Below, in pieces: positions 15,288-27,981 of a stretch of 64,000 bases of DNA. Positions within the stretch are counted from its first letter, which is position 1. Each line of letters begins with the position of its first letter. Under the pieces are notes generated by a model. It did not search any database. It saw nothing but the letters and a program-made list of their open reading frames with translations, and had not been told where the DNA came from. A program made the translations under genes and the position numbers. The stretch spans positions 1 through 64,000 of the forward strand of contig JAGMCI010000011.1 in the NCBI GenBank assembly GCA_023129325.1, in the 5' to 3' direction. Origin of the DNA: Caldifarciminota bacterium. Its GTDB lineage: Bacteria; Hydrothermota; UBA3073; JACQXS01; JAGMCI01.

Positions 15288-16856
15288 AATTTATATGCGA
15301 CTGAGTTTATGGGGATAGATGAGATAAAACCTGGAATGAAGGGATATGGCCTCACAGTTTTTAAAGGCACAAAGATTGATACCTTTCAAGTAGAGATAAT
15401 AGATGTAATGCGCAAAAGATTACCAAAGGGCGATGTAATACTGTCTGAAATTTCAGGTGGCATCGTTGATACAGCTGGTGTAATATCTGGTATGAGCGGT
15501 AGTCCTATATATATTGATGGTAAGCTAATAGGGGCGCTGGCTTATAGCTATGGTGCCTTTCCTAAAAAAGCATTAGCTGGTATAACACCAATAAATGAGA
15601 TGTTAAATCCTCCATCCGGTGGATATGGAGTGCCAGGAGGTAAATTTTCTCCAATCAAAATTCCTCTATGCTGTCCGGGACTTGATGAAGGGATAATTCA
15701 GGAATTAAAGGAAGCAATTCCTTGTTTTAATGTAAGGAAGGTTGAAGGTTCTGGTGGGATTTTTGATGACAGCATTTTACCTTTTCCTGGTTCACCACTT
15801 GGAATTCCATTGGTTATGGGAGATATAAACTGGTATGGAGTAGGCACCTGCACTTATAAAGAAGGCAATAAGGTATGGGGATTCGGACATCCTATGTCAG
15901 CACTTGGTGAAACAGAGCTCCCTATGACAGCTGGATATATTTATTCTATTGTGCCATCGCTTTATGATTCTTATAAGATGGGGGCTCCTACAAAGATAAT
16001 TGGGACTATAAAGAATGATAATGAGAGAGGGATTATAGGTGTTATAGGTAAGATTCCAGATTTAATAGATTTTAATTTAAAGATTAATCCGCCTAAGGCG
16101 GAATCAGGTGGAGAAAAATTCCACTATCGGATTGTAAAAGAGAAGGCATATTTTCCTTCTCTTTTTAGGGGGTTAACCTTTTATTCTATTTACACTGGTT
16201 TTAAAGGCACAGGCGAGATGACAATGGAAGTTGATTTAGAAATAGAGGGTTCTCGTGATTTTCAATTTAATAATCTTTATACTGGAACGATAATAGATAT
16301 ATCAAAATCCATAGCCAGAGTATTTGGACTTATCTGGAATAATCCTTTTCAGGAAGTAGAGATAGACAAAATTTCAATGAATTTAGTTTCTTCTAACCAA
16401 ATTAAATTAGCGAAAATTGAAAGGCTTTCTGTTGATAAGAAAGAAATCAAAACGGGCGACAGCTTAAATTTAGTCCTTTTATTATCAAGTTATCAAGAGG
16501 GACTTGTGAAACAGCATATATCAATTAAGATTCCAAGTTGGTCAAAGAAAGGCAAACTAACCCTTAGCATAGAAGGTGGTGACGCAATTAGAAATGAAGA
16601 TATTGTCAATATTAAGACAATTGATGGTCTTGCGAGATGGCTTACGACAGCTCCAAGTGATAATGAGTTAGTGCTAAGATTAACTCAAAAGGGAAAGAGC
16701 ACTTGGATTATAGGTGAAAGATTTCCATCCCTCCCACCTTCAAGGAGTTCTTTTCTAAAGGGGGATATTGAAGAAAAAGATGTAATTTTAGAAAAAAGGA
16801 TAAAAACAGAATGGGTAATAAAGGGTGAAAAATCAATAGAATTGGAGGTAAAATGA
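15213..16856 (+). CDS. SpoIVB-type S55 domain protein, secreted
   Basis: Secreted or periplasmic protein, 547 residues. Residues 31-150 carry the S55 (SpoIVB peptidase) pattern: GIDEIKPGMKGYGLTVFKG, then ISGMSGSPIYIDGKLIGAL, where the GMSGSP serines (S95/S97) include the expected nucleophile. The rest is beta-rich and unassigned. Residues 1-29 (LHRFLEVILISAICGVSLN core) look like a signal peptide and are wholly encoded by the ACAGAT repeat. A palindrome TCCGCCTAAGGCGGA lies in frame near 16089 (NPPKAESGG). The ATGA overlap at 16853 couples it to the next gene. Confidence 0.8.
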   Translation: MNTNFNRLHRFLEVILISAICGVSLNLYATEFMGIDEIKPGMKGYGLTVFKGTKIDTFQVEIIDVMRKRLPKGDVILSEISGGIVDTAGVISGMSGSPIYIDGKLIGALAYSYGAFPKKALAGITPINEMLNPPSGGYGVPGGKFSPIKIPLCCPGLDEGIIQELKEAIPCFNVRKVEGSGGIFDDSILPFPGSPLGIPLVMGDINWYGVGTCTYKEGNKVWGFGHPMSALGETELPMTAGYIYSIVPSLYDSYKMGAPTKIIGTIKNDNERGIIGVIGKIPDLIDFNLKINPPKAESGGEKFHYRIVKEKAYFPSLFRGLTFYSIYTGFKGTGEMTMEVDLEIEGSRDFQFNNLYTGTIIDISKSIARVFGLIWNNPFQEVEIDKISMNLVSSNQIKLAKIERLSVDKKEIKTGDSLNLVLLLSSYQEGLVKQHISIKIPSWSKKGKLTLSIEGGDAIRNEDIVNIKTIDGLARWLTTAPSDNELVLRLTQKGKSTWIIGERFPSLPPSRSSFLKGDIEEKDVILEKRIKTEWVIKGEKSIELEVK

Positions 16857-18721
16857 AAAAATGGTTTTCTTTTTTCTTTTTAATTATCTTGCCTTGTCTA
16901 AGCTTTTCAGTCACAACTTCAATGTGGGAAGTAAGGGATTTTAAGGAGTGCAAGCTTGAAAATATAATGCTTGACAAAGACGGATTTGCGAGGTTATCGC
17001 CTGAAATTAAATGTGTCTGGGATAATCCAGAAGTTTATATCTGGTCATTTCTTAAACTTGGAAAGGGTTTATATGTAGGCACAGGAGCAGAGGGGAAAGT
17101 ATATAAAATTGAATCTCCGCCTAAGGCGGATAAGGGGAAGCTCTTATTTGATACAAAGGAAGCAGGAGTTTTTTCTCTTAATTTATGGAAAGGCAAGCTT
17201 TATGCTGGCACCGCTCCTCATGGTTTCATTTATGTGATAGATAAAAAAGGAGAAGGTAAAATTTTTAAGGAAACGGGTGAAGAATATATATGGGATATTG
17301 TATTTGATGAAAAAGGCAATCTTTATGCGGCAACTGGCACAGAAGGCAAGATACTCAAAATTACAAAGCAGGGTGTATTAGATACTTTTTATATCACAGG
17401 AGAGATGAATGTAAGTTCCCTTCTTTATTCCAAGCCTTATCTTTATGCTGGGACTGGAGAAAGTGGACTCTTATTTCGGATTAATAAATATGGTAAAGGT
17501 TTCTGTATATACGATGCGAGCGAGCCAGAAATTACTGAAATTATTTTAAGAGATACTTTATTATTTATTGCGACCACTGGAGACACTTCTGGCTCCATTT
17601 ACAAGATTTTTCCTGATAATAAAGTAGAAAAAATATGGCAAACAAATTCTCCAATTCAAGGGATGCAAAAAGTGCCTGCCTCGCCGAGTCAATGCGGGGG
17701 TAATAAGTTTTTAGTTGCTACCAAAAATCGTGTGTATAGAATAGATACTGATGGCGAAGAGGAACTTCTTTTTGAACTACCAACAAATATATCTTGTATA
17801 AGTGATAATTGGGTTGGAACATCTGAGGTTGGAAAAGTATATAAAATGAGCGCTAGATTAGCAAAAGACGGGACTCTTGAATCAACTCCTTATGATACTA
17901 AAGGCATTTCTATATGGGGCAGACTTGATTTTGAAGGAGAGGGAAATATTGGATTCCAAACAAGGTCCGGGAATACAGGCAAACCAGATAAAACATGGGA
18001 AGATTGGAAATGTCTGGGAAGTGATGACAAGATTAAGAGTTCTCCAAGCAGATTTATTCAATGGAAAGCTTCATTAAAGAACGCTAATGCCATACTTAAA
18101 GAAGTTAAATTTGCTCACTTGCCTCAAAATGAGAAGCCGATGATTTTGAGTATTGAGTTTTCCAAACCAATGCCTGAAGAAAATATTCCTGAAGGAGCAA
18201 AAGAGATTTCCTGGACAGCTAATGACCCAAATGGAGATAGTTTAAGTTTTAATCTATACTTTAAGTTAACAACTGAAAAGGAATGGACTCTTTTAGAGGA
18301 ATCTTTTAAAGATACTTTTTATTATATAGACCCAAAATCATTTCCTGATGGCAAATATATCTTTAAAGTTGAAGCCTCAGATTCTCCAAGTAATCCACCA
18401 GGCTCTGCTTTAAGAAGTGAAAAACTATCAACTGTTTATTTAATTGATAACACAGCACCAGAAATTGAGATAAAGAATGTAGGAACAGGGCTTGCCCCTG
18501 TCCTTTCCTTTAAAGTCACAGATAATTTAAGTTATATAAAGTCTTGTGAATATGCACTTGATGGAGGGTCATGGAAGCTTATTTTTCCTGCAGATAAGCT
18601 CTTTGATTCAAAGATTGAGGAGTTCAAAATTAAAATTGGAGAGGCAAAAAAAGTAGTTATAAGGGTTAGCGATGCTTGTGGTAATATGGGTCTTAAAAGC
18701 CAATTAATAAAATTAAAATAA
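16853..18721 (+). CDS. Secreted beta-propeller-like protein with C-terminal Ig-like domain
   Basis: Not assigned to a named family. It has 622 residues, with signal peptide MKKWFSFFFLIILPCLSFS. From about residue 65 to 350 there are repeated blades such as LYVGTGAEGKVYKI, LYAGTAPHGFIYVI, LYAATGTEGKILKI and LYAGTGESGLLFRI, typical of a beta-propeller. Residues 430-620 resemble Ig/fibronectin-like folds (ISWTANDPNGDSLSFNLYF). Two small palindromes are read in frame (near 17117, SPPKADKGK, and near 17670, VPASPSQCGG). It overlaps the S55 gene by ATGA, suggesting that the two work together at the cell surface. Confidence 0.72.
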   Translation: MKKWFSFFFLIILPCLSFSVTTSMWEVRDFKECKLENIMLDKDGFARLSPEIKCVWDNPEVYIWSFLKLGKGLYVGTGAEGKVYKIESPPKADKGKLLFDTKEAGVFSLNLWKGKLYAGTAPHGFIYVIDKKGEGKIFKETGEEYIWDIVFDEKGNLYAATGTEGKILKITKQGVLDTFYITGEMNVSSLLYSKPYLYAGTGESGLLFRINKYGKGFCIYDASEPEITEIILRDTLLFIATTGDTSGSIYKIFPDNKVEKIWQTNSPIQGMQKVPASPSQCGGNKFLVATKNRVYRIDTDGEEELLFELPTNISCISDNWVGTSEVGKVYKMSARLAKDGTLESTPYDTKGISIWGRLDFEGEGNIGFQTRSGNTGKPDKTWEDWKCLGSDDKIKSSPSRFIQWKASLKNANAILKEVKFAHLPQNEKPMILSIEFSKPMPEENIPEGAKEISWTANDPNGDSLSFNLYFKLTTEKEWTLLEESFKDTFYYIDPKSFPDGKYIFKVEASDSPSNPPGSALRSEKLSTVYLIDNTAPEIEIKNVGTGLAPVLSFKVTDNLSYIKSCEYALDGGSWKLIFPADKLFDSKIEEFKIKIGEAKKVVIRVSDACGNMGLKSQLIKLK

Positions 18722-18734
18722 TCTATCTTATCTA

Positions 18735-21476
18735 ATGCAAAACCTTTTACAGATAATTTCTCTTTATCTTCCACGGGCTGTGGCAAGGAAGTCGGAGGTT
18801 GAGTTACGGAAGGGGAAATGGCAAGATAGAGCAATATTATTGGTAGATATTTCAGGATTCACTCCTCTAACTGAGAAACTTACAGCTCTTGGAAAGGAAG
18901 GGGCAGAGGAAATCACCGGTATAGTTAATTCATATTTTACACCACTTCTTGATATTATGGGCAAGTATGGAGGAGACCTTTTAACTTTTAGTGGAGATGC
19001 TCTAATAGTTATATTCTCGGGCAAAGATAAAGAGTTGAGAGCTGGACAGGTAGCTTGGGAAATGCAAGAGTTTATGAAGAAATTTGCCAAGGTGAAAACT
19101 TCTCAAGGTGTGTTTCCATTGTCGTTACATATTGGGATACATACAGGGAAAGTGTTAGAAACTGTGGTAGGGACCAAAAAGTTAGGTTTGTGTTATGCAA
19201 TTTTGGGAAAAGTGGCTAACAAAGTTGCCTTAATTGGAGAGAAATCAAAAGCTAAGGAAATTCTTATAAGTGAAGCCGTGCTTAAGAAAATAAAGGAAAA
19301 GGTGCAAGTAGAGGATAAGGAGAAAGGTATCTACGGGTTGATAGAGTTAAAAGAGAAACTTAAGCCAGGCAAGACGAAGGCTAAAGCCCATGTCTACAAA
19401 GAGAAGAAAAAAATTATAGAAAAGCTTGAATCAATAGTCCCACACCTCCTGCCAGGGCTCCTTGATAAAATCAAAGCGCATCCTGAATCTAAAGAAATAT
19501 GGGGTGAACATCGGCGGGTAACCAGTTTGTTTTTAAACTTCTGGGGTATGGACTACGAGAGTGATAAGAAAGCGGTTAAGAAATTACAGACTTATTTTTC
19601 TCAAATCCAGCAGAGTGTTCACAAATATGGAGGCACAATTGACAAGATAGATTTTTCACCTTTGGGAGATAGAATACTCATTTTGTTTGGTGTCCCTTAT
19701 GCCCATGAAGATGATGAGGAACGTGCAGTAAGATGTGCCACAGAGATTATGGCTATGTCACCAGAGGATTTCAGTCAGAGGATAGGTATAAACAGTGGCT
19801 TTATTTTCGCAGGTAATGTTGGTTCTGAGATAAGGCGCAAATACACAGTAATGGGAGATGAGATAAATCTCGCCGCCAGGTTAATGAGTATTGCAAAAAA
19901 GGAGATGTTAATAAGTGAGGCAGTGGCTAATAAAGCAAAGGAGAAGTTTGAAATTGAACCCTTGAGACTTGTAAAAGTGAAAGGCAAGACAAAACTTGTA
20001 AAGCTTTATAGACTCGTTGGCTTGAAGGTAGAGGAGCGGGAGCTCTTTAAGATACGCATGGGTGAAAGCAAAATTATGGTTGGCAGAGATAAAGAGCGTA
20101 ATACAATGAAGAAGGTCATTGAAAAGGTAAAATTAAGTAAAGGGCAAATGGTTTCTATTACTGGTGAAGCTGGTATAGGTAAGTCAAGGCTTGCCAGAGA
20201 GCTAACAGATGAGTGGGGCAAACAAGGGTTTAAATTTTATGGCGGTGACTGCCAATCTTATGGGAAGTCTATCTCTTATTTGTTATGGATAGATTTAGTA
20301 AGTTCCTATATGGGGATTTTCAAGTTTGATTCTAAAAAAGATAAGTGTGCCAAGATAGAAAAATTTATGAAGGAAGTAGATACCAAACTCAAGGAATGGA
20401 CACCAATAATTGGTGAACTCTTAGGAGTGAAAATTCCAGAGACTTCTCTCACTAAATCTTTGGATGCCAAACTTAGGAGGCAGAGGCTGTTTGATATAGT
20501 ACTACAGTTTATTAGATGGCACGCAGAGAAAGAACCTGTGATGTTAGTTCTTGAGGACTTGCACTGGGCAGATACGGGGTCTATTGAATTGCTTAATTAT
20601 GTGGCAAGAAACATAGGAGACTATGCTATCCTGCTTTGTCTTGTTTATCGTCCTATCAAGGAAAAAATGGAATTTATGGAAAAGCCATACTATACTGCTT
20701 TTACTTTAAAAGAGCTATCTGATAAGGACAATATTGACCTGGCAAAGTTACTGCTTAATACAGAGGGGTTACCTGCCCAGCTAAGAAACCTCGTCCTTAC
20801 CAAGACGCAGGGCAACCCATTCTTCACAGAAGAGGTGATTAAGTCCTTAATGGAGCAAGGGGCACTGAAGTTAGAAGCTGAGAATTGGAAGTTGGTTACC
20901 GAGAAGTTAGAGCTTCCGGACACAATTCAGGGTGTGATAATGAGCCGTATAGACAGATTAGATGAGGAGACAAAGCATGTGCTACAGGTGGCATCAGTGA
21001 TTGGTAGGGAATTTGAGTATCGTTTACTGGATGGCATCTATCCGTCAAAAATAGACTTAAAAAATGAGCTTTCAATACTTGAAGAGCTTGATTTGATTCT
21101 TTTGGAGAGAAGGGAGGGACAAGAACGGTATTTCTTTAAACATATAATGACTCAAGAGGTAGCTTACGATTCCCTTGCCTTTAAACGACGACGAAGTTTT
21201 CATAATACTCTCGGTGATTTTCTTGAAAAACTCTATAAAGAGAGCTTGGAAGAGCAGTATGGATTTTTGGCACACCACTATTATCAAGGACATAATTGGG
21301 AAAAATCATTTTACTACTCCATAGAAGCGGGTAATAAGTCAAAGAAGGCCTATGCCAATCAAGAAGCTCTAAATTATTATGACAGGGCACTCGAGGTTTT
21401 TGATAAATTATGTAAAGAAGGATACCATAAGAAGTTTCTAAAGAGAATCCAAAAAGAGTTAGAAAAAGAAAAGTAA
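18735..21476 (+). CDS. Soluble-adenylyl-cyclase-like protein: two cyclase domains plus STAND/AAA ATPase
   Basis: Cytoplasmic class III cyclase, 913 residues, with the layout of mammalian soluble adenylyl cyclase minus the TPR tail. Domain C1 (about 33-190) supplies both metal Asp residues: D38 (LLVDISGFT) and D88 (FSGDALIV). Domain C2 (about 260-400) supplies K304, T371, N378 and R382 (KYTVMGDEINLAARL) for adenine and transition-state binding. Together they make one active site. Residues aligned by eye to the two bicarbonate-binding residues of the human enzyme are T84 and A165 instead of Lys and Arg. Walker A is GEAGIGKS (477-484) and Walker B VMLVLEDLHWAD. TPR domains are encoded by the next four genes. 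It starts 13 bp after the previous gene. Product is probably cAMP. Confidence 0.88.
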   Translation: MQNLLQIISLYLPRAVARKSEVELRKGKWQDRAILLVDISGFTPLTEKLTALGKEGAEEITGIVNSYFTPLLDIMGKYGGDLLTFSGDALIVIFSGKDKELRAGQVAWEMQEFMKKFAKVKTSQGVFPLSLHIGIHTGKVLETVVGTKKLGLCYAILGKVANKVALIGEKSKAKEILISEAVLKKIKEKVQVEDKEKGIYGLIELKEKLKPGKTKAKAHVYKEKKKIIEKLESIVPHLLPGLLDKIKAHPESKEIWGEHRRVTSLFLNFWGMDYESDKKAVKKLQTYFSQIQQSVHKYGGTIDKIDFSPLGDRILILFGVPYAHEDDEERAVRCATEIMAMSPEDFSQRIGINSGFIFAGNVGSEIRRKYTVMGDEINLAARLMSIAKKEMLISEAVANKAKEKFEIEPLRLVKVKGKTKLVKLYRLVGLKVEERELFKIRMGESKIMVGRDKERNTMKKVIEKVKLSKGQMVSITGEAGIGKSRLARELTDEWGKQGFKFYGGDCQSYGKSISYLLWIDLVSSYMGIFKFDSKKDKCAKIEKFMKEVDTKLKEWTPIIGELLGVKIPETSLTKSLDAKLRRQRLFDIVLQFIRWHAEKEPVMLVLEDLHWADTGSIELLNYVARNIGDYAILLCLVYRPIKEKMEFMEKPYYTAFTLKELSDKDNIDLAKLLLNTEGLPAQLRNLVLTKTQGNPFFTEEVIKSLMEQGALKLEAENWKLVTEKLELPDTIQGVIMSRIDRLDEETKHVLQVASVIGREFEYRLLDGIYPSKIDLKNELSILEELDLILLERREGQERYFFKHIMTQEVAYDSLAFKRRRSFHNTLGDFLEKLYKESLEEQYGFLAHHYYQGHNWEKSFYYSIEAGNKSKKAYANQEALNYYDRALEVFDKLCKEGYHKKFLKRIQKELEKEK

Positions 21477-21565: not shown

Positions 21566-23185
21566 ATGAAAGAGCTCATTTATTATCCTTTTACTTCACT
21601 TGTTGAAGACTATCTAGGTATCAGTGAAGAAGATAAGTCTGAGAATCCTCCCTTCAGAATAGATTTGGAGCGCTGTTTCAGGAATAGTGGCAGTAGGGGG
21701 TTCAGGAATTTTGTGAAGGCGATGATTGGATTGAATAAAGTTGCTGTTCTCAAGCTTATCGGTGAATACAAAGCCGGGATCAAATTAGGAAAGAAATCTC
21801 TGACCCTGATGGAACGGGCAAATCTCCAAAGAGGAAAGGTAAAATCGCTGTTGAGCCTGAGTAATATGTATGATGGCATTAGCTCGTATGCTGAGTTGGG
21901 AAAAGTAGCCAAAGTAGCACGTAGGATATGTGAAAGGCTCAAAGACCGAGAATATGAAGCAATGAGCCTTCACTGCATTGGTCTGGCTCATTATAGGCTC
22001 GGTGATTATAAACAAGCCCTAAAATACTACCATCACTCTCTTAAGATACGAAAAGAGATTGGCAGTAAAAGGGGTGAGGGAGCTAGCTTCCATAACATTG
22101 GCGTTGTGTGGTATAGCCTTGGTAGCTATGAGAAGGCGCTAAAATACTACAAACACGCACTCACAATAAGAGAAGAGATTGGTGACAGAAGGGGTGAAGC
22201 TCTGAGTCTCAACAACATCGGTCTCGTTCTCACCGATATTGGCGATTATAAGCAGGTTCTCAAATACTACCGTCAATCCCTTAAGATACAAGAAGAGATC
22301 GGCGATAGAGATGGTGAAGGGAAAAGTCTTATCAATATAGGCATTCTTTATCACAATCTGGGTAACTATAAAGAAGCTTTGAAATATTTCGAACGTTCCC
22401 GTAGAATATTTGCAGATATCGGTGCTAAGAGTTATGAGGCAACAAGTCTCAGTAATATCGGTGTCGTTTACGAAAGACTCGGTGACCATAAGAAGATACT
22501 AAAATATTACTACCGCTCACTAAAAATAAAAGAAGAAATTGGTGATATACGTGGTAAAGCAGTTTGTCTCAACAACATTGGTATTGTGAGTTATAATCTT
22601 GGGGAGTATGAGCAGTCACTAAGACACTACAGCCAGGCACTTAAGATAAATAAGGAAGTCGGTGATAAGAGTGACGAGGCAATTAGCCTTATCAATATTG
22701 GTAATACTCATCTGAAAACAGGGGGTTTTGAAAAGGCAGAAAAGTTTTTTAATAAAGCATTGGGTATTGCACATGAGCTGGGCTCAAAAGATGTTTTATA
22801 TCGAGTCCTTTTTTCTATGACGATGCTTTACCTTGAGAGAGAAGAGATAGACAAAGCAGAAGAATATGTGAATAAGATCTCACAATCTGCTGTCGAATTG
22901 GGTTCAAAGTCTGATGAAGCTGCTGCGTTGCGTCTTTCCGGGAGACTTTCGACCCTTAAGGCTGAATGGCAAAAGGCAAAAGAGTCGTTTGAGAAAAGCA
23001 TTGCTATTTTTAAAGAGATGGAAAACAGATTTGAACTTGGTAAAACATATTACCGTTATGGAGAAATGAAAACCTTAACACAAGAATCCGAGCTTGCAAA
23101 GAAATACTTAATGAAAGCGAGGAAAATATTTAAGAAGTTAGGTGCTCAGGACTGGCTGACAAAAATAAAGAAGGTTATTAAGTAA
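21566..23185 (+). CDS. TPR repeat protein, paralogue 1 of 4
   Basis: Cytoplasmic scaffold or sensor, 539 residues. The N-terminus YYPFTSLVEDYLGISEEDK, then RCFRNSGSRGFRNFVK, is shared with the next two genes. Residues about 130-400 are seven or more 40-residue TPR units of the type NIGxVYxxLGDYKxALKYYxxSLKIxxEIGD. A more diverged helical-repeat C-terminus ends in a TPR-like AKKYLMKARKIFKKLGAQDWL. Such repeats normally bind proteins. Its place directly after the ATPase suggests it replaces the missing TPR domain of the cyclase, working in trans; this is inference. Confidence 0.85.
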   Translation: MKELIYYPFTSLVEDYLGISEEDKSENPPFRIDLERCFRNSGSRGFRNFVKAMIGLNKVAVLKLIGEYKAGIKLGKKSLTLMERANLQRGKVKSLLSLSNMYDGISSYAELGKVAKVARRICERLKDREYEAMSLHCIGLAHYRLGDYKQALKYYHHSLKIRKEIGSKRGEGASFHNIGVVWYSLGSYEKALKYYKHALTIREEIGDRRGEALSLNNIGLVLTDIGDYKQVLKYYRQSLKIQEEIGDRDGEGKSLINIGILYHNLGNYKEALKYFERSRRIFADIGAKSYEATSLSNIGVVYERLGDHKKILKYYYRSLKIKEEIGDIRGKAVCLNNIGIVSYNLGEYEQSLRHYSQALKINKEVGDKSDEAISLINIGNTHLKTGGFEKAEKFFNKALGIAHELGSKDVLYRVLFSMTMLYLEREEIDKAEEYVNKISQSAVELGSKSDEAAALRLSGRLSTLKAEWQKAKESFEKSIAIFKEMENRFELGKTYYRYGEMKTLTQESELAKKYLMKARKIFKKLGAQDWLTKIKKVIK

Positions 23186-23242: not shown

Positions 23243-24979
23243 ATGATGTACTATCCCTATACTTCACTTATTAAAGACTATCTGGATATCAGTGAAGAAG
23301 ATAAGTCTGAAAATCCTGCATTTAGAATAGATTTAGATTGCTGTTTCAAGGACAAAGGGATCAAGGGATTTAAGAACTTTGTAAAAGCTGAATTGGGATT
23401 GAAAAAGATTGAGGTCCTTAATATAGTTGGTAAATATGATAAAGGGCTCAAACTGGGGCAGGAGAGTCTTGCCCTGATGCAGGAAGCAAATCTACAAAAG
23501 GGAAAGGCAAATTCACTCGTGACCCTTAGTGAAGTTTATGATGGTATTAGCCGCTATGATGAGATGAAAAAAGTAGCCAGAGCAGCCCACAGCATATATA
23601 AGAGACTTAAGGATAAAAAAGGTGAGGCAGAAAGCCTCAGCAATATCGGTACTGTGCATTACAGCCTTGGTGACTACAAGCAGGCACTGAAATACTACAG
23701 CCGCGCACTTAAGATACAAGAAGAAATCGGCGACCGAAGTGGTGAGGCAGTGGGTCTCAACAACATTGGTGCTGTGCATACTATGCTGGGTGACTATGAG
23801 GAGGCACTGAAATATCACAGCCGCGCACTCAAGATAAAAAAAGAAATCGGCGACCGAAGTAGTGAGGCAGCCAGCCTCAGCAACATCGGTATTGTGCATT
23901 ACAGCCTGGGTAACTACAAGCAGGCACTGAAATACTACAGCCATTCACTTAAGATAAGACAAGAAATCGGCGACCGAAGTGGTGAGGCAGTGAGTCTCAA
24001 CAATATTGGTCTCGTGCCCTCCAGCCTTGGTAACTACAAGCAGACACTGAAATACTACAGCCGCGCACTTAAGATAAGACAAGAAATCGGCGACCGAAGT
24101 GGTGAGGCAAACAGTCTCAACAACATCGGTCTTGTGCATGATAGCCTGGGTGACTACAAGACGGCACTGAAATACTACAGCCGCGCACTTAAGATAGAAA
24201 AGGAGATCGGCAACCGAAGTAGTGAGGCAGTGAGTCTCAACAACATTGGTGCTGTGTATGACAACCTGGGTGACTATGAGGAGGCACTGAAATACTACAA
24301 CCATTCACTTAGGATAAGACAAGAGATCGGCGACCGAAGTGGTGAGGCAAACAGTCTCAACAACATCGGTTTTGTGCATGATAGCCTGGGTGACTACAAG
24401 ACGGCACTGAAATACTGCAGCCGCGCACTTAAGATAAGACAAGAAATCGGCGACCGAAGGGGTGAGGCAGTGAGTCTCAACAACATCGGTAATACTCATT
24501 TGGAAACAGGTAAATTAGAAAAGGCAGAAGAATACTATACTAAAGCGCTGGATATCGCAAATGAACTGGGCTCAAAGGAGATAGACTCACGAGTTCTCTC
24601 TTCTATGGCTTCTTTTTGTATTAAAAAAGGAGATGTTGATAGGGCGGAAGGTTATCTGAAGGAAACATCGCAACTGGCAAACGAGCTGGATTCAAAGTCT
24701 GTTACTGCTTCAGCTTTTTGTCTATCTGGTCGCCTGCAAAGTCTGAAAGGTGAACTGGAAAAAGCAAAAGACTCCTTTGAGAAATCTATTGCTCTTTTCA
24801 AAGAACTAAAAGATAAATTTGGGCTTGGCAGAACATATTACTACTATGGGAAGATGAAATCCGAAAACCGAAAGCTGAAAGAAGGAAAGAAATACTTTAT
24901 TGAAGCGAAGAAGATATTTAAAGAGCTTGGCGCTGAGGGCTGGCTCCTTAAAGTAGACAAGGAATTAGCTAATAAGTAG
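23243..24979 (+). CDS. TPR repeat protein, paralogue 2 of 4 (near-identical repeats)
   Basis: 578 residues. Shares the N-terminal block YYPYTSLIKDYLDISEEDK with its neighbours. Eight consecutive 40-residue TPR units at about 123-420 (NNIGLVHDSLGDYKTALKYY type) are almost identical at the DNA level, with exact 120-bp periodicity. The C-terminal 150 residues are diverged TPRs like those of paralogue 1. No enzyme motif. Lies 57 bp after paralogue 1, the gap holding only AT-rich repeat-like sequence. Long open antisense frames across the repeats are a by-product of the repetition. Confidence 0.85.
   Translation: MMYYPYTSLIKDYLDISEEDKSENPAFRIDLDCCFKDKGIKGFKNFVKAELGLKKIEVLNIVGKYDKGLKLGQESLALMQEANLQKGKANSLVTLSEVYDGISRYDEMKKVARAAHSIYKRLKDKKGEAESLSNIGTVHYSLGDYKQALKYYSRALKIQEEIGDRSGEAVGLNNIGAVHTMLGDYEEALKYHSRALKIKKEIGDRSSEAASLSNIGIVHYSLGNYKQALKYYSHSLKIRQEIGDRSGEAVSLNNIGLVPSSLGNYKQTLKYYSRALKIRQEIGDRSGEANSLNNIGLVHDSLGDYKTALKYYSRALKIEKEIGNRSSEAVSLNNIGAVYDNLGDYEEALKYYNHSLRIRQEIGDRSGEANSLNNIGFVHDSLGDYKTALKYCSRALKIRQEIGDRRGEAVSLNNIGNTHLETGKLEKAEEYYTKALDIANELGSKEIDSRVLSSMASFCIKKGDVDRAEGYLKETSQLANELDSKSVTASAFCLSGRLQSLKGELEKAKDSFEKSIALFKELKDKFGLGRTYYYYGKMKSENRKLKEGKKYFIEAKKIFKELGAEGWLLKVDKELANK
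23618..24498 (+). repeat. 120-bp tandem coding repeats
   Basis: Seven to eight units of 120 bp, for example recurring GGCGACCGAAGTGGTGAGGC and CTGAAATACTACAGCCGCGC every 120 bp. Conservation at synonymous positions indicates recent expansion or gene conversion. Confidence 0.9.
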
Positions 24980-25009: not shown

Positions 25010-26512
25010 ATGAAAACCCCTCTTTATTATCCTTACACTTCACTTGTTAAAGACTATCTTGATATTAAGGAAGAAGATAAATCTGAGAATCCTGCATTCC
25101 GAAGGGATTTGGAGCGCTGTTTCAGGAATAGTGGTAGTAGGGGGTTCAGGAATTTTGTGAAGTCTGAGTTGGGGTTAAAAAAGATTGAAGTCCTTAATTT
25201 AATTGGTAAATACAATGAAGGACTCAAGATAGGGAAAGAATGCCTTACCCTGATGGAACAGGTAAATATAAAAAGAGGGAAGGCAGACTCACTTTTGAGC
25301 TTGAGTGAAGCTTATGATGGCATTAGTTCATATAATGAGATGAAAATTGCAGCCAAGGCAGCATACAGTATATATAAGAGTCTCAAAGATAAAAAAGGTA
25401 TGGCAATGAGTCTCAACAACATTGGTTATGTATATAGTAGTTTCGGCAATTATAACAAGGCGCTTGAATATCACAATCGTTCACTTAAGATAGAAGAAGA
25501 GACAGGCAATAGAAGTGGCGCGGCAATAAGTCTCAACAACATCGGTTATGTGTATAGTAGTCTCGGCAATCACAACAAGGCATTGGAGTATTACAATCAC
25601 TCGCTTAAAATAAGAGAAGAGATAGGCGACAGGAAAGGTGAGGCAACAAGCCTCGGCAATATTGGTAGTGTGTATAGTAGTTTCGGCAATTACAACAAGG
25701 CGCTTGAATATCACAATCGTTCACTTAAGATAGAAGAAGAGACAGGTAATAGAAGTGGCGCGGCAATAAGTCTCAATAACATTGGTTTTATGTGTGACAA
25801 TCTTGGCAACTATAAGAAGGCACTGGAATACTACAGGCGCTCACTTAAGATGCAAGAAAAGATTGGTGACAAAATGCACGATGCAACAAGCCTTAGCAAT
25901 ATCGGTTATGTGTATAAGAACCTTGGCGACTATAACAAGGCACTTAAATATCATAGCCGTTCACTTAAAATAGAAGAAGAGATAGGAAATAGAAGTGGTG
26001 AGGCAATAAGTCTTAATAACATTGGAAACATATATTTGGAAATAGAGAGGTTTGAAAAAGCGGAAGAACACTTTAATAAAGCATTAACTATTGTAAAAAA
26101 ACTGGAATCGAAGGATATGTCATTAAGCGTATTCTCTTCTTTTGCAACTCTCTGCCTTGAAAAGGAAGATATTGATAAAGCAGAGGGCTATGTAAATAAG
26201 GCAGTAGAACTTGCAGAAAAAATGGACTCAAAATCCACCAGGGCTTTTGTCCTTTGTTTATCTGGTCGCCTCGCAACTCTCAAAGGCGAATGGCAAAAAG
26301 CAAAAGAATCTTTTGAGCAAAGCATTGCTATTTTTAAAGAGATGAAGGATAAATTTGAGCTTGGCAAAACATATTACTACTATGCTAAGTCTCAAGTCTC
26401 AAGTTACAAGACTCAAGACTACAAAAAATATCTTATTGAAGCGGAAAAGTTATTTAAGGAACTTGGTGCAAAAGCTTGGCTTAAGAAAGTAGAAGCTGTT
26501 TTAAAAACTTGA
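25010..26512 (+). CDS. TPR repeat protein, paralogue 3 of 4
   Basis: 500 residues. N-terminal block YYPYTSLVKDYLDIKEEDK plus ERCFRNSGSRGFRNFVK; the latter is nearly identical in DNA to paralogue 1, which suggests gene conversion. About six 40-residue TPR units (NNIGYVYSSFGNYNKALEYH) at residues 128-345, including a 240-bp-spaced near-identical pair. A diverged TPR-like C-terminus ends GAKAWLKKVEAVLKT. The gene starts 30 bp after paralogue 2; the next start follows its stop by 2 bp. Confidence 0.85.
   Translation: MKTPLYYPYTSLVKDYLDIKEEDKSENPAFRRDLERCFRNSGSRGFRNFVKSELGLKKIEVLNLIGKYNEGLKIGKECLTLMEQVNIKRGKADSLLSLSEAYDGISSYNEMKIAAKAAYSIYKSLKDKKGMAMSLNNIGYVYSSFGNYNKALEYHNRSLKIEEETGNRSGAAISLNNIGYVYSSLGNHNKALEYYNHSLKIREEIGDRKGEATSLGNIGSVYSSFGNYNKALEYHNRSLKIEEETGNRSGAAISLNNIGFMCDNLGNYKKALEYYRRSLKMQEKIGDKMHDATSLSNIGYVYKNLGDYNKALKYHSRSLKIEEEIGNRSGEAISLNNIGNIYLEIERFEKAEEHFNKALTIVKKLESKDMSLSVFSSFATLCLEKEDIDKAEGYVNKAVELAEKMDSKSTRAFVLCLSGRLATLKGEWQKAKESFEQSIAIFKEMKDKFELGKTYYYYAKSQVSSYKTQDYKKYLIEAEKLFKELGAKAWLKKVEAVLKT
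25434..25793 (+). repeat. Near-identical duplicated TPR segment, 240 bp apart
   Basis: About 25437-25555 and 25677-25795 differ at only a few bases, including shared TTCGGCAATTA.AACAAGGCG and AGTGGCGCGGCAATAAGTCTC. A diverged unit lies between them. Confidence 0.8.
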
Positions 26513-26514
26513 AT

Positions 26515-27981
26515 ATGAGGACAGAACGATATTACCCTTTCACTGCCTTTTTCAGAGATTACTCAGCAAAAGAATTGAATGCTCTAAAATCCTTTCTTGC
26601 AAGTGAGAAGTTCGTTAAATTTATAGACCTTGCCATAGGACTGAAGAAGATAGAAATTTTAGCTCGGATTGGTAAGTGGGATGAAGGACAACAATTGGCA
26701 GAAAGTAAACTTATCGTTGCTGAAAGCATAAGAGATAAGAGTTCTCAGAGCAAGTGTCTATCTATGATTGCCGAATTTAACTGGGACCGTAGTGCTTATG
26801 AGGATGCCTTAATCTATTGTAACACTGTATTAGAACTGGCTCAAGAGGCAAATAACAAGAAGATAGTGATTAAAGTATTAGGTAATATTGGTGGAATATA
26901 TAATTCAAAGGGTAACTATGACATGGGGCTTGAAAAATACAAGCAAGTCTTGAATATGGTTCGTAAGATTGGCGACCATCAGAACGAGGGAAAGGCGCTT
27001 GGTAATATTGGAATCACTTATTATTTAAAGGGAGAATATGATTCTGCGTTGAAATATTTGAATGAAGGGCTTAAAATACTGCAAGAAAGGGGAGATAAAA
27101 TAAATGAGGGGATGGGCTTTGGCTCTATCGGAGCCATCTATGAAGAAAGGGGTGAGTATAAAAAGGCATTAGAATATCATTCAAAAGCATTAAAGATGTT
27201 TCAAGAGCTCGGCAGCACAGATAACGAAGCTATCTGGCTGGGTAATATAGGAAATATCTACTTAAATATAGGAAATTATAAAAGAGCAGAGAAATGTTTC
27301 GGTAAGGCACTTGAGGGAGCAAAGAAGACAGGTGACAGATGGACCGAAGGAATCAATCTCGGGAATATGGGTAAGCTTTATTATGAGAAGGGCGTTCTTG
27401 ATTTAGCCATAAATTATTTTCAGCAAGCACTTGGATTAGCTAAGAAGCTCGGCGAAAAAAGAAGCGAGGCTATATGGCTTAAAGAGATTGGCGAAGTTTA
27501 TAGGATAAAAGGCTTGTATGAGCAGGCACTAAAATACTATAATCAAGCACTTAAAATATACGGGGGAATAAATAAAAAGTTTAAATGTGCAACTCTAATG
27601 GATATAGGAGTTCTATACTTTGAAAAAGAAGAGTATGAAATTGCAGAAAATTATTTGGTGAACGCTGTCAAACTTGCTGAAGAAACTAAAGACATAGCGA
27701 CAAAAGCAATTGTGCTCTTTTATCTTGGGGCAAGCAGAGCAGCTCGCGAGAAAACAGAAAAGCCCTTACAACTCATTTATAGGGGTATTAGAATTGCTGA
27801 GAAATTAGAAAACAAGAAATTGATGGCAGAGGGTTATTTCGTTCTTGGTAAAGCTAAAGCATTAATTGACAAAAGATTGGAAGCCGAAGAAATACTGCAA
27901 AAAGCACACAAATTAGCAAAAGATATAAATAATAAAAGTCTTTATGATGAAATTTGGAGAGAACTAAAGAGAATCTCGTGA
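26515..27981 (+). CDS. TPR repeat protein, paralogue 4 of 4 (diverged)
   Basis: 488 residues from ATG 26515 (MRTERYYPFTAFFRDY). An upstream TTG at 26509 overlaps the previous stop codon and is unlikely. The N-terminal block is shortened and lacks the EEDKSENP segment. TPR units continue through most of the protein (GNIGGIYNSKGNYDMGLEKY, GSIGAIYEERGEYKKALEYH, GNIGNIYLNIGNYKRAEKC). Repeats are diverged at DNA level, so this copy is older or under different selection. Last gene of the cyclase operon. The CNB gene converges on it with a 7-bp gap. Confidence 0.84.
   Translation: MRTERYYPFTAFFRDYSAKELNALKSFLASEKFVKFIDLAIGLKKIEILARIGKWDEGQQLAESKLIVAESIRDKSSQSKCLSMIAEFNWDRSAYEDALIYCNTVLELAQEANNKKIVIKVLGNIGGIYNSKGNYDMGLEKYKQVLNMVRKIGDHQNEGKALGNIGITYYLKGEYDSALKYLNEGLKILQERGDKINEGMGFGSIGAIYEERGEYKKALEYHSKALKMFQELGSTDNEAIWLGNIGNIYLNIGNYKRAEKCFGKALEGAKKTGDRWTEGINLGNMGKLYYEKGVLDLAINYFQQALGLAKKLGEKRSEAIWLKEIGEVYRIKGLYEQALKYYNQALKIYGGINKKFKCATLMDIGVLYFEKEEYEIAENYLVNAVKLAEETKDIATKAIVLFYLGASRAAREKTEKPLQLIYRGIRIAEKLENKKLMAEGYFVLGKAKALIDKRLEAEEILQKAHKLAKDINNKSLYDEIWRELKRIS

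Follow-up and report, generated by a model that had tools for sequence, protein, structure and literature searches.

This locus raises the question of what controls a bacterial adenylyl cyclase of the soluble type (sAC, or ADCY10), and where the cAMP that it would make is read. We analyzed a 64,000-nucleotide stretch of a Caldifarciminota bacterium genome (hereafter the window), in which the gene for a 913-aa cyclase protein is followed by four genes for TPR proteins on the same strand and by one gene for a cyclic-nucleotide-binding protein on the other (Table 1).

Table 1. Features of the cyclase locus, with positions counted from the first letter of the window.
Feature	Position	Strand	Evidence
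sAC-type adenylyl cyclase gene, C1-C2-STAND ATPase, 913 aa	18735..21476	+	ORF list, Pfam, phmmer, profile, fold
C1 catalytic domain, residues 30-198, metal Asp D38 and D88	18822..19328	+	Pfam, relatives' alignment
Codon of T84, position of human K95	18984..18986	+	four alignments
Codon of A165, position of human R176	19227..19229	+	four alignments
C2 catalytic domain, residues 255-430, K304, T371, N378, R382	19497..20024	+	Pfam, alignments
STAND ATPase half, residues 441-913	20055..21473	+	AAA_16, motifs, AlphaFold2, Foldseek
Walker A GEAGIGKS, residues 477-484	20163-20186	+	motif reading
Walker B LVLEDLHW, residues 604-611	20544-20567	+	motif reading
GNP motif, residues 693-695	20811-20819	+	motif reading
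TPR protein 1, 539 aa, proposed trans sensor	21566..23185	+	
TPR protein 2, 578 aa, proposed trans sensor	23243..24979	+	
TPR protein 3, 500 aa, proposed trans sensor	25010..26512	+	
TPR protein 4, 490 aa, more distant paralogue	26509..27981	+	
Cyclic-nucleotide-binding protein, 181 aa	27989..28534	-	Pfam, pocket motif; convergent with TPR array

First, we found that the 913-aa protein, judged by its sequence and predicted structure, is a bacterial representative of the soluble-type (ADCY10-like) tandem adenylyl cyclases. Pfam assigned two PF00211 stretches and an AAA_16 domain to it, and human sAC was its best sequence match among solved structures by phmmer (E about 1.6e-24), with C1 paired with C1 and C2 with C2 in the same order. 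When a profile of 19 tandem relatives was searched against the PDB, human sAC was reached at an E-value of 1.8e-54 and the next cyclase, 3r5g, at 2.8e-33. Pairwise BLOSUM62 scores against human sAC (118 for C1 and 141 for C2) dwarfed the shuffle maxima (11.5 and 13.0, respectively), and the match is therefore far beyond chance. In addition, the AlphaFold2 model of C1-C2 (residues 1-440) reached a pLDDT of 88.5 and a pTM of 0.88, and the first 24 PDB matches in a fold search with this model were all human sAC, covering both domains at a TM of about 0.8. As in sAC/ADCY10-like cyclases, two class III cyclase domains lie in one soluble chain, with the metal Asp pair in C1 and the Lys, Thr, Asn and Arg in C2. 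The sAC-type layout proposed in an earlier sequence-only reading of this DNA is thus borne out by domain, sequence, profile and fold searches alike.

A search of the genome contigs with the single 913-aa protein revealed no relatives, and a profile search of genome contigs revealed 517. The titled relatives came from bins of Chloroflexota, WOR-3, Edwardsbacteria, Zixiibacteriota, Actinomycetota and Acidobacteria, as well as from bins labelled Cloacimonadota. In a tree of separate domains, each human domain grouped with its sampled bacterial counterparts, C1 with all C1 (support 100/100) and C2 with all C2 (support 100/97), and single-domain cyclases fell outside both groups. With long human branches and no root, the tree supports a single tandem C1-C2 ancestor without proving it, and it suggests that animals and bacteria share the C1-C2 fusion, which would then not have arisen within the animals. 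Bacterial sAC domain structure, including sAC-like proteins with a P-loop, was reportedly described earlier by Kobayashi in 2004.

Second, four alignments with human sAC (HMMER pairwise, MAFFT with 30 relatives, MAFFT with 97 relatives and BLOSUM62 pairwise) all placed the residues of the active site in the same way. The metal-binding D47 and D99 of human C1 correspond to D38 and D88, at positions that were invariant in 19 relatives, whereas K334, T405, N412 and R416 of human C2 correspond to K304, T371, N378 and R382; human V167 falls on I156. Since the Lys and Arg are missing from C1 (T84 and L166 are found there) and the first metal Asp from C2 (N268, from the alignment), one working and one dead site are expected. 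C1 and C2 would pack as a pseudo-dimer around a single ATP site, the second site being dead, with D38 and D88 of C1 binding the metals and K304, T371, N378 and R382 of C2 serving the adenine and the transition state. This placement agrees with the earlier claim of one composite active site, with the Asp pair in C1 (D38, D88) and Lys, Asn and Arg in C2 (K304, N378, R382).

All six catalytic residues are kept, as they are in 65 of 98 relatives, and from these residues we infer adenylyl cyclase activity for the 913-aa protein. Their retention also argues against the reading of the cyclase domains as a nucleotide-sensing pseudo-enzyme instead of a catalyst, which may be suspected because some class III-like proteins merely bind ATP (6yii, among the fold matches) and because K144 of human C1, a pyrophosphate contact, is replaced by H132. 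However, this His was invariant in 19 relatives, and we consider the pseudo-enzyme very improbable. The kinetics of the window cyclase may differ, since its K144 equivalent is His. Two relatives of one genus (L052 and L054) have tandem cyclases with Ala at both the C2 Lys and the C2 Thr, and their substrate choice may therefore differ.

Third, the Lys95 and Arg176 of bicarbonate-regulated mammalian sAC are both replaced. The sequence-only reading had placed T84 and A165 at these positions, and all four alignments agreed with it, none of them placing Lys or Arg there. On the other hand, its view of the missing pair as a special trait of this enzyme was not supported. In a control alignment of 98 distinct bacterial tandem proteins, not one had a basic residue at the R176 position (Ala in 47), and the K95 position was occupied by Lys in 46, Arg in 22, Thr in three and varied residues in the rest; a missing Arg is the bacterial norm and a missing Lys a minority state. 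Most non-mammalian animal sACs also lack one or both of these residues (PMC12867704).

The structure of human sAC shows R176 as the switch by which D99 is released (PMC12250328), and homodimeric bacterial cyclases respond to bicarbonate without it (PMC4506562), so that its loss alone is no proof of bicarbonate insensitivity. Lys95 is the sole residue of the human pocket that bicarbonate-responsive cyanobacterial enzymes share, and in the Anabaena enzyme this Lys is important for the response (PMC4506562). The change from K95 to T84 is thus the stronger of the two arguments, and because of it the window cyclase is likely to be insensitive to bicarbonate. The same Thr, together with the recurrence of TPR genes beside cut cyclases but never beside fused ones (see below), also makes it unlikely that the sAC-type cyclase still answers bicarbonate or, more plausibly, pH through other residues and that the TPR genes are unrelated neighbours, although bacterial enzymes do respond without R176, the Thr at the T371 position was taken in older work as a predictor of bicarbonate response (PMC3383692), and sea-urchin and salmon sACs, which lack one of the pair, are pH-gated and show no bicarbonate activation (PMC12867704). 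The window protein is an sAC-type tandem cyclase outside the bicarbonate-switch subset. By itself, the bicarbonate point changes little: the K95/R176 switch is absent from the bacterial tandem lineage, which agrees with a 2026 report that assigns it largely to mammals.

We then turn to the second half of the protein, whose Walker A, Walker B and GNP motifs have key positions invariant in 16 relatives. This half is more conserved among relatives than the cyclase half (42-54% and 32-49%, respectively). A phmmer search with it against the PDB gave no sequence match; its AlphaFold2 model (pLDDT 87.4) was matched by Foldseek to Apaf-1, the TPR-sensor STAND protein PH0952 (6mfv), CED-4 and MalT. With Walker A, Walker B and GNP in the sequence and a fold that matches 6mfv, MalT and Apaf-1, the ATPase half is, by its motifs and model, a STAND switch of the MalT/Apaf-1 type. 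It follows C2, as the P-loop STAND region does in sAC-type cyclases, and the chain ends at residue 913 without the same-chain TPRs of TPR-sensor STAND proteins. Known proteins of that group are kept closed through sensor contacts (PMC6468293). Full-length human sAC is less active than the truncated form, and a 2025 study that tested nucleotides found no regulator specific to full-length sAC and none for its STAND region (PMC12802110). In the window protein, the STAND ATPase may gate cyclase activity by switching between two states, closed with ADP and open with ATP. The earlier suggestion that the ATPase and the TPR proteins control the enzyme has gained a genuine STAND module and TPR genes that recur beside cut relatives; as for control itself, it is a reasonable guess.

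The TPR genes were then compared with the relatives. Most relatives have a TPR tail in the same chain, mostly of 320-600 aa and in one case of 708 aa. Eighteen comparable relatives end where the window protein does (tails of 0-13 aa past the query end), and a TPR gene comes next, on the same strand and less than 200 bp away, in nine of these 18 cut relatives and in none of 41 fused ones (Fisher p 4e-6, which is indicative only, the sequences being related and not independent). The succession of cyclase gene and TPR gene was seen repeatedly, in several families; L040-L043, the four closest relatives, have no TPR gene downstream. In the window, the cyclase gene and TPR genes 1, 2 and 3 are spaced by 89, 57 and 30 bp, and TPR genes 3 and 4 overlap. 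TPR proteins 1-3 are close paralogues with N-termini 62-71% identical, and the N-terminus of TPR protein 4 is 27-31% identical to those of the other three. No further occurrence of this N-terminal region was found elsewhere in the genome.

These observations suggest that the TPR sensor arm, which lies in cis in most relatives, is supplied here by four separate TPR proteins, which would bind the ATPase half in trans and either relieve or establish autoinhibition when a signal arrives. The alternative is that regulation lies entirely in the ATPase half and its final helices and that the TPR proteins are independent scaffolds derived from tandem duplication. Nine of the 18 cut relatives lack a neighbouring TPR gene, and repeats of 120 bp have recently expanded within the TPR genes, both of which fit independent scaffolds; but the cut lies exactly where fused relatives run on into TPRs, and the cyclase-TPR order recurs in several families, and we regard this alternative as rather unlikely. 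With regard to the proposed trans sensors, it is conceivable, if doubtful, that the four TPR proteins are interchangeable, each with a different signal, and that they converge on one cAMP pool and receptor. If true, the locus would hold a split version of the sensor arrangement of full-length human sAC. In the literature searched, with most subscription journals outside it, no description of a split sensor layout was found. The split layout matters more than the bicarbonate point: a separate, soluble and purifiable TPR arm would let the response of the STAND region be tested by mixing parts.

Several other observations concern the surroundings of these genes. The 120-bp (40-aa) repeats occur at 23621-24490 in TPR gene 2 (7.3 copies) and at 25402-26025 in TPR gene 3 (5.2 copies), and their near identity points to a recent expansion of the TPR array. 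An origin of the TPR N-terminus as a copy of an ATPase stretch was considered and dropped, with only an E-value of 0.25 in one relative. A 622-aa ORF without a Pfam match (16853-18721) lies 13 bp upstream of the cyclase gene and may be in the same transcript; a promoter and terminator scan gave counts near the shuffled expectation.

Finally, the 181-aa cyclic-nucleotide-binding protein is the candidate receptor. Its gene lies eight bases past the last TPR gene, tail to tail. The pocket motif FGELAFIDGIPRSTT has the canonical Glu and Arg, and the closest solved structures are PKA regulatory subunits. Beyond this domain, no further Pfam domain, DNA-binding domain, membrane span or TIR was found in the protein. 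Family searches identified the cyclase as the only PF00211 protein and the binding protein as the only PF00027 match in the genome; at an assembly completeness of 89%, further cyclases or receptors may have escaped these searches. Random placement would bring the two genes this close (6.5 kb) with a chance of about 0.8%. In an order-level relative (G133), the orthologous binding protein aligns at 49% over 172 of the 181 residues, tail included, and its gene stops 18 bp short of a cyclase-AAA_16-TPR fusion gene that runs towards it. The same tail-to-tail pairing was seen in two other genomes, where the binding protein is less closely related. Outside this order, the binding protein is not regularly beside tandem cyclases. 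From its sequence, the 181-aa protein probably binds cAMP, and it would read the cAMP made by the adjacent cyclase.

Related loci differ in several ways. In G139 (L092), two cyclase/ATPase-TPR genes flank a cyclic-nucleotide-binding gene, all on the same strand. No class III cyclase was found in G001, a genome of the same family, and its only cyclic-nucleotide-binding match was weak and degenerate, with neither the Glu nor the Arg; this genome may have lost the cAMP pathway. Elsewhere in the genome of the window (L103:1-3201, G000:C32), a kinase-AAA_16-TPR gene lies beside the start of YacP-like and acyltransferase-like ORFs, and homologous-looking YacP-like and acyltransferase-like neighbours flank the cyclase-AAA_16-TPR and binding-protein pair of G133 (L094:2919-6976). 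A swap of output domain, kinase versus cyclase, between these two loci is possible on this sequence evidence.

Domain identity, residue placement, the STAND fold, the recurrence of TPR genes after cyclase genes and the finding of a single cyclase and receptor are computed results, and the functional steps of a cAMP pathway would connect them in the order signal, TPR protein, STAND half, C1-C2, cAMP and binding protein. We consider it reasonably probable that the locus encodes a STAND-gated sAC-type adenylyl cyclase with trans-acting TPR sensors, which sends cAMP to the adjacent receptor. A Pycsar-like anti-phage system, in which a nucleotide cyclase works with a cyclic-nucleotide-sensing effector, appears extremely improbable. 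PADLOC PycC models matched both cyclase domains and effector models matched the binding protein over its sensor domain, but these matches extend no further than the generic cyclase and nucleotide-binding domains. Pycsar pairs a pyrimidine cyclase with a membrane or TIR effector, whereas the base residues here are of the ATP type (Lys304 and Thr371 match the ATP-recognising residues of sAC, the top match), the binding protein has neither a TIR nor a membrane span, and no defence neighbours were seen.

Among known systems, human or mammalian sAC is the closest to the window protein, being the best PDB match by sequence, profile and fold alike, with about 21% identity over the aligned fold. The two have in common the tandem C1-C2 order, the same catalytic residues on the same domains and the cytosolic layout, and full-length human sAC also shares the P-loop STAND region after C2. 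The window protein differs in having T84/A165 for K95/R176 and H132 for K144, and in a chain that stops after the STAND half, with TPRs encoded as separate genes. Class IIIb homodimeric cyclases (Spirulina/Anabaena CyaC and P. aeruginosa CyaB) share the fold and the base-recognition Thr, but they have one domain per chain and two active sites, unlike the tandem protein, and their bicarbonate-responsive members keep the Lys that it lacks. The TOMM kinase/cyclase fusion family TIGR03903 gave a partial match across C2 and the ATPase and was rejected, the score of 275.5 bits being below the curated cut-off of 705.75 and a kinase domain being absent. The bacterial cyclase-AAA_16-TPR fusions, found mainly in Chloroflexota and also in Zixibacteria, Actinomycetota and others, have the same C1-C2-STAND core and likewise no basic residue at the R176 position; they carry about 420-600 aa of TPRs in cis with no adjoining TPR gene, whereas the window has separate genes. 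TPR-sensor STAND regulators such as MalT and PH0952 share the fold and motifs of the ATPase half and the TPR sensor logic (PMC6468293). In contrast with them, the output in the window is a cyclase pair and the TPR sensor apparently acts in trans.
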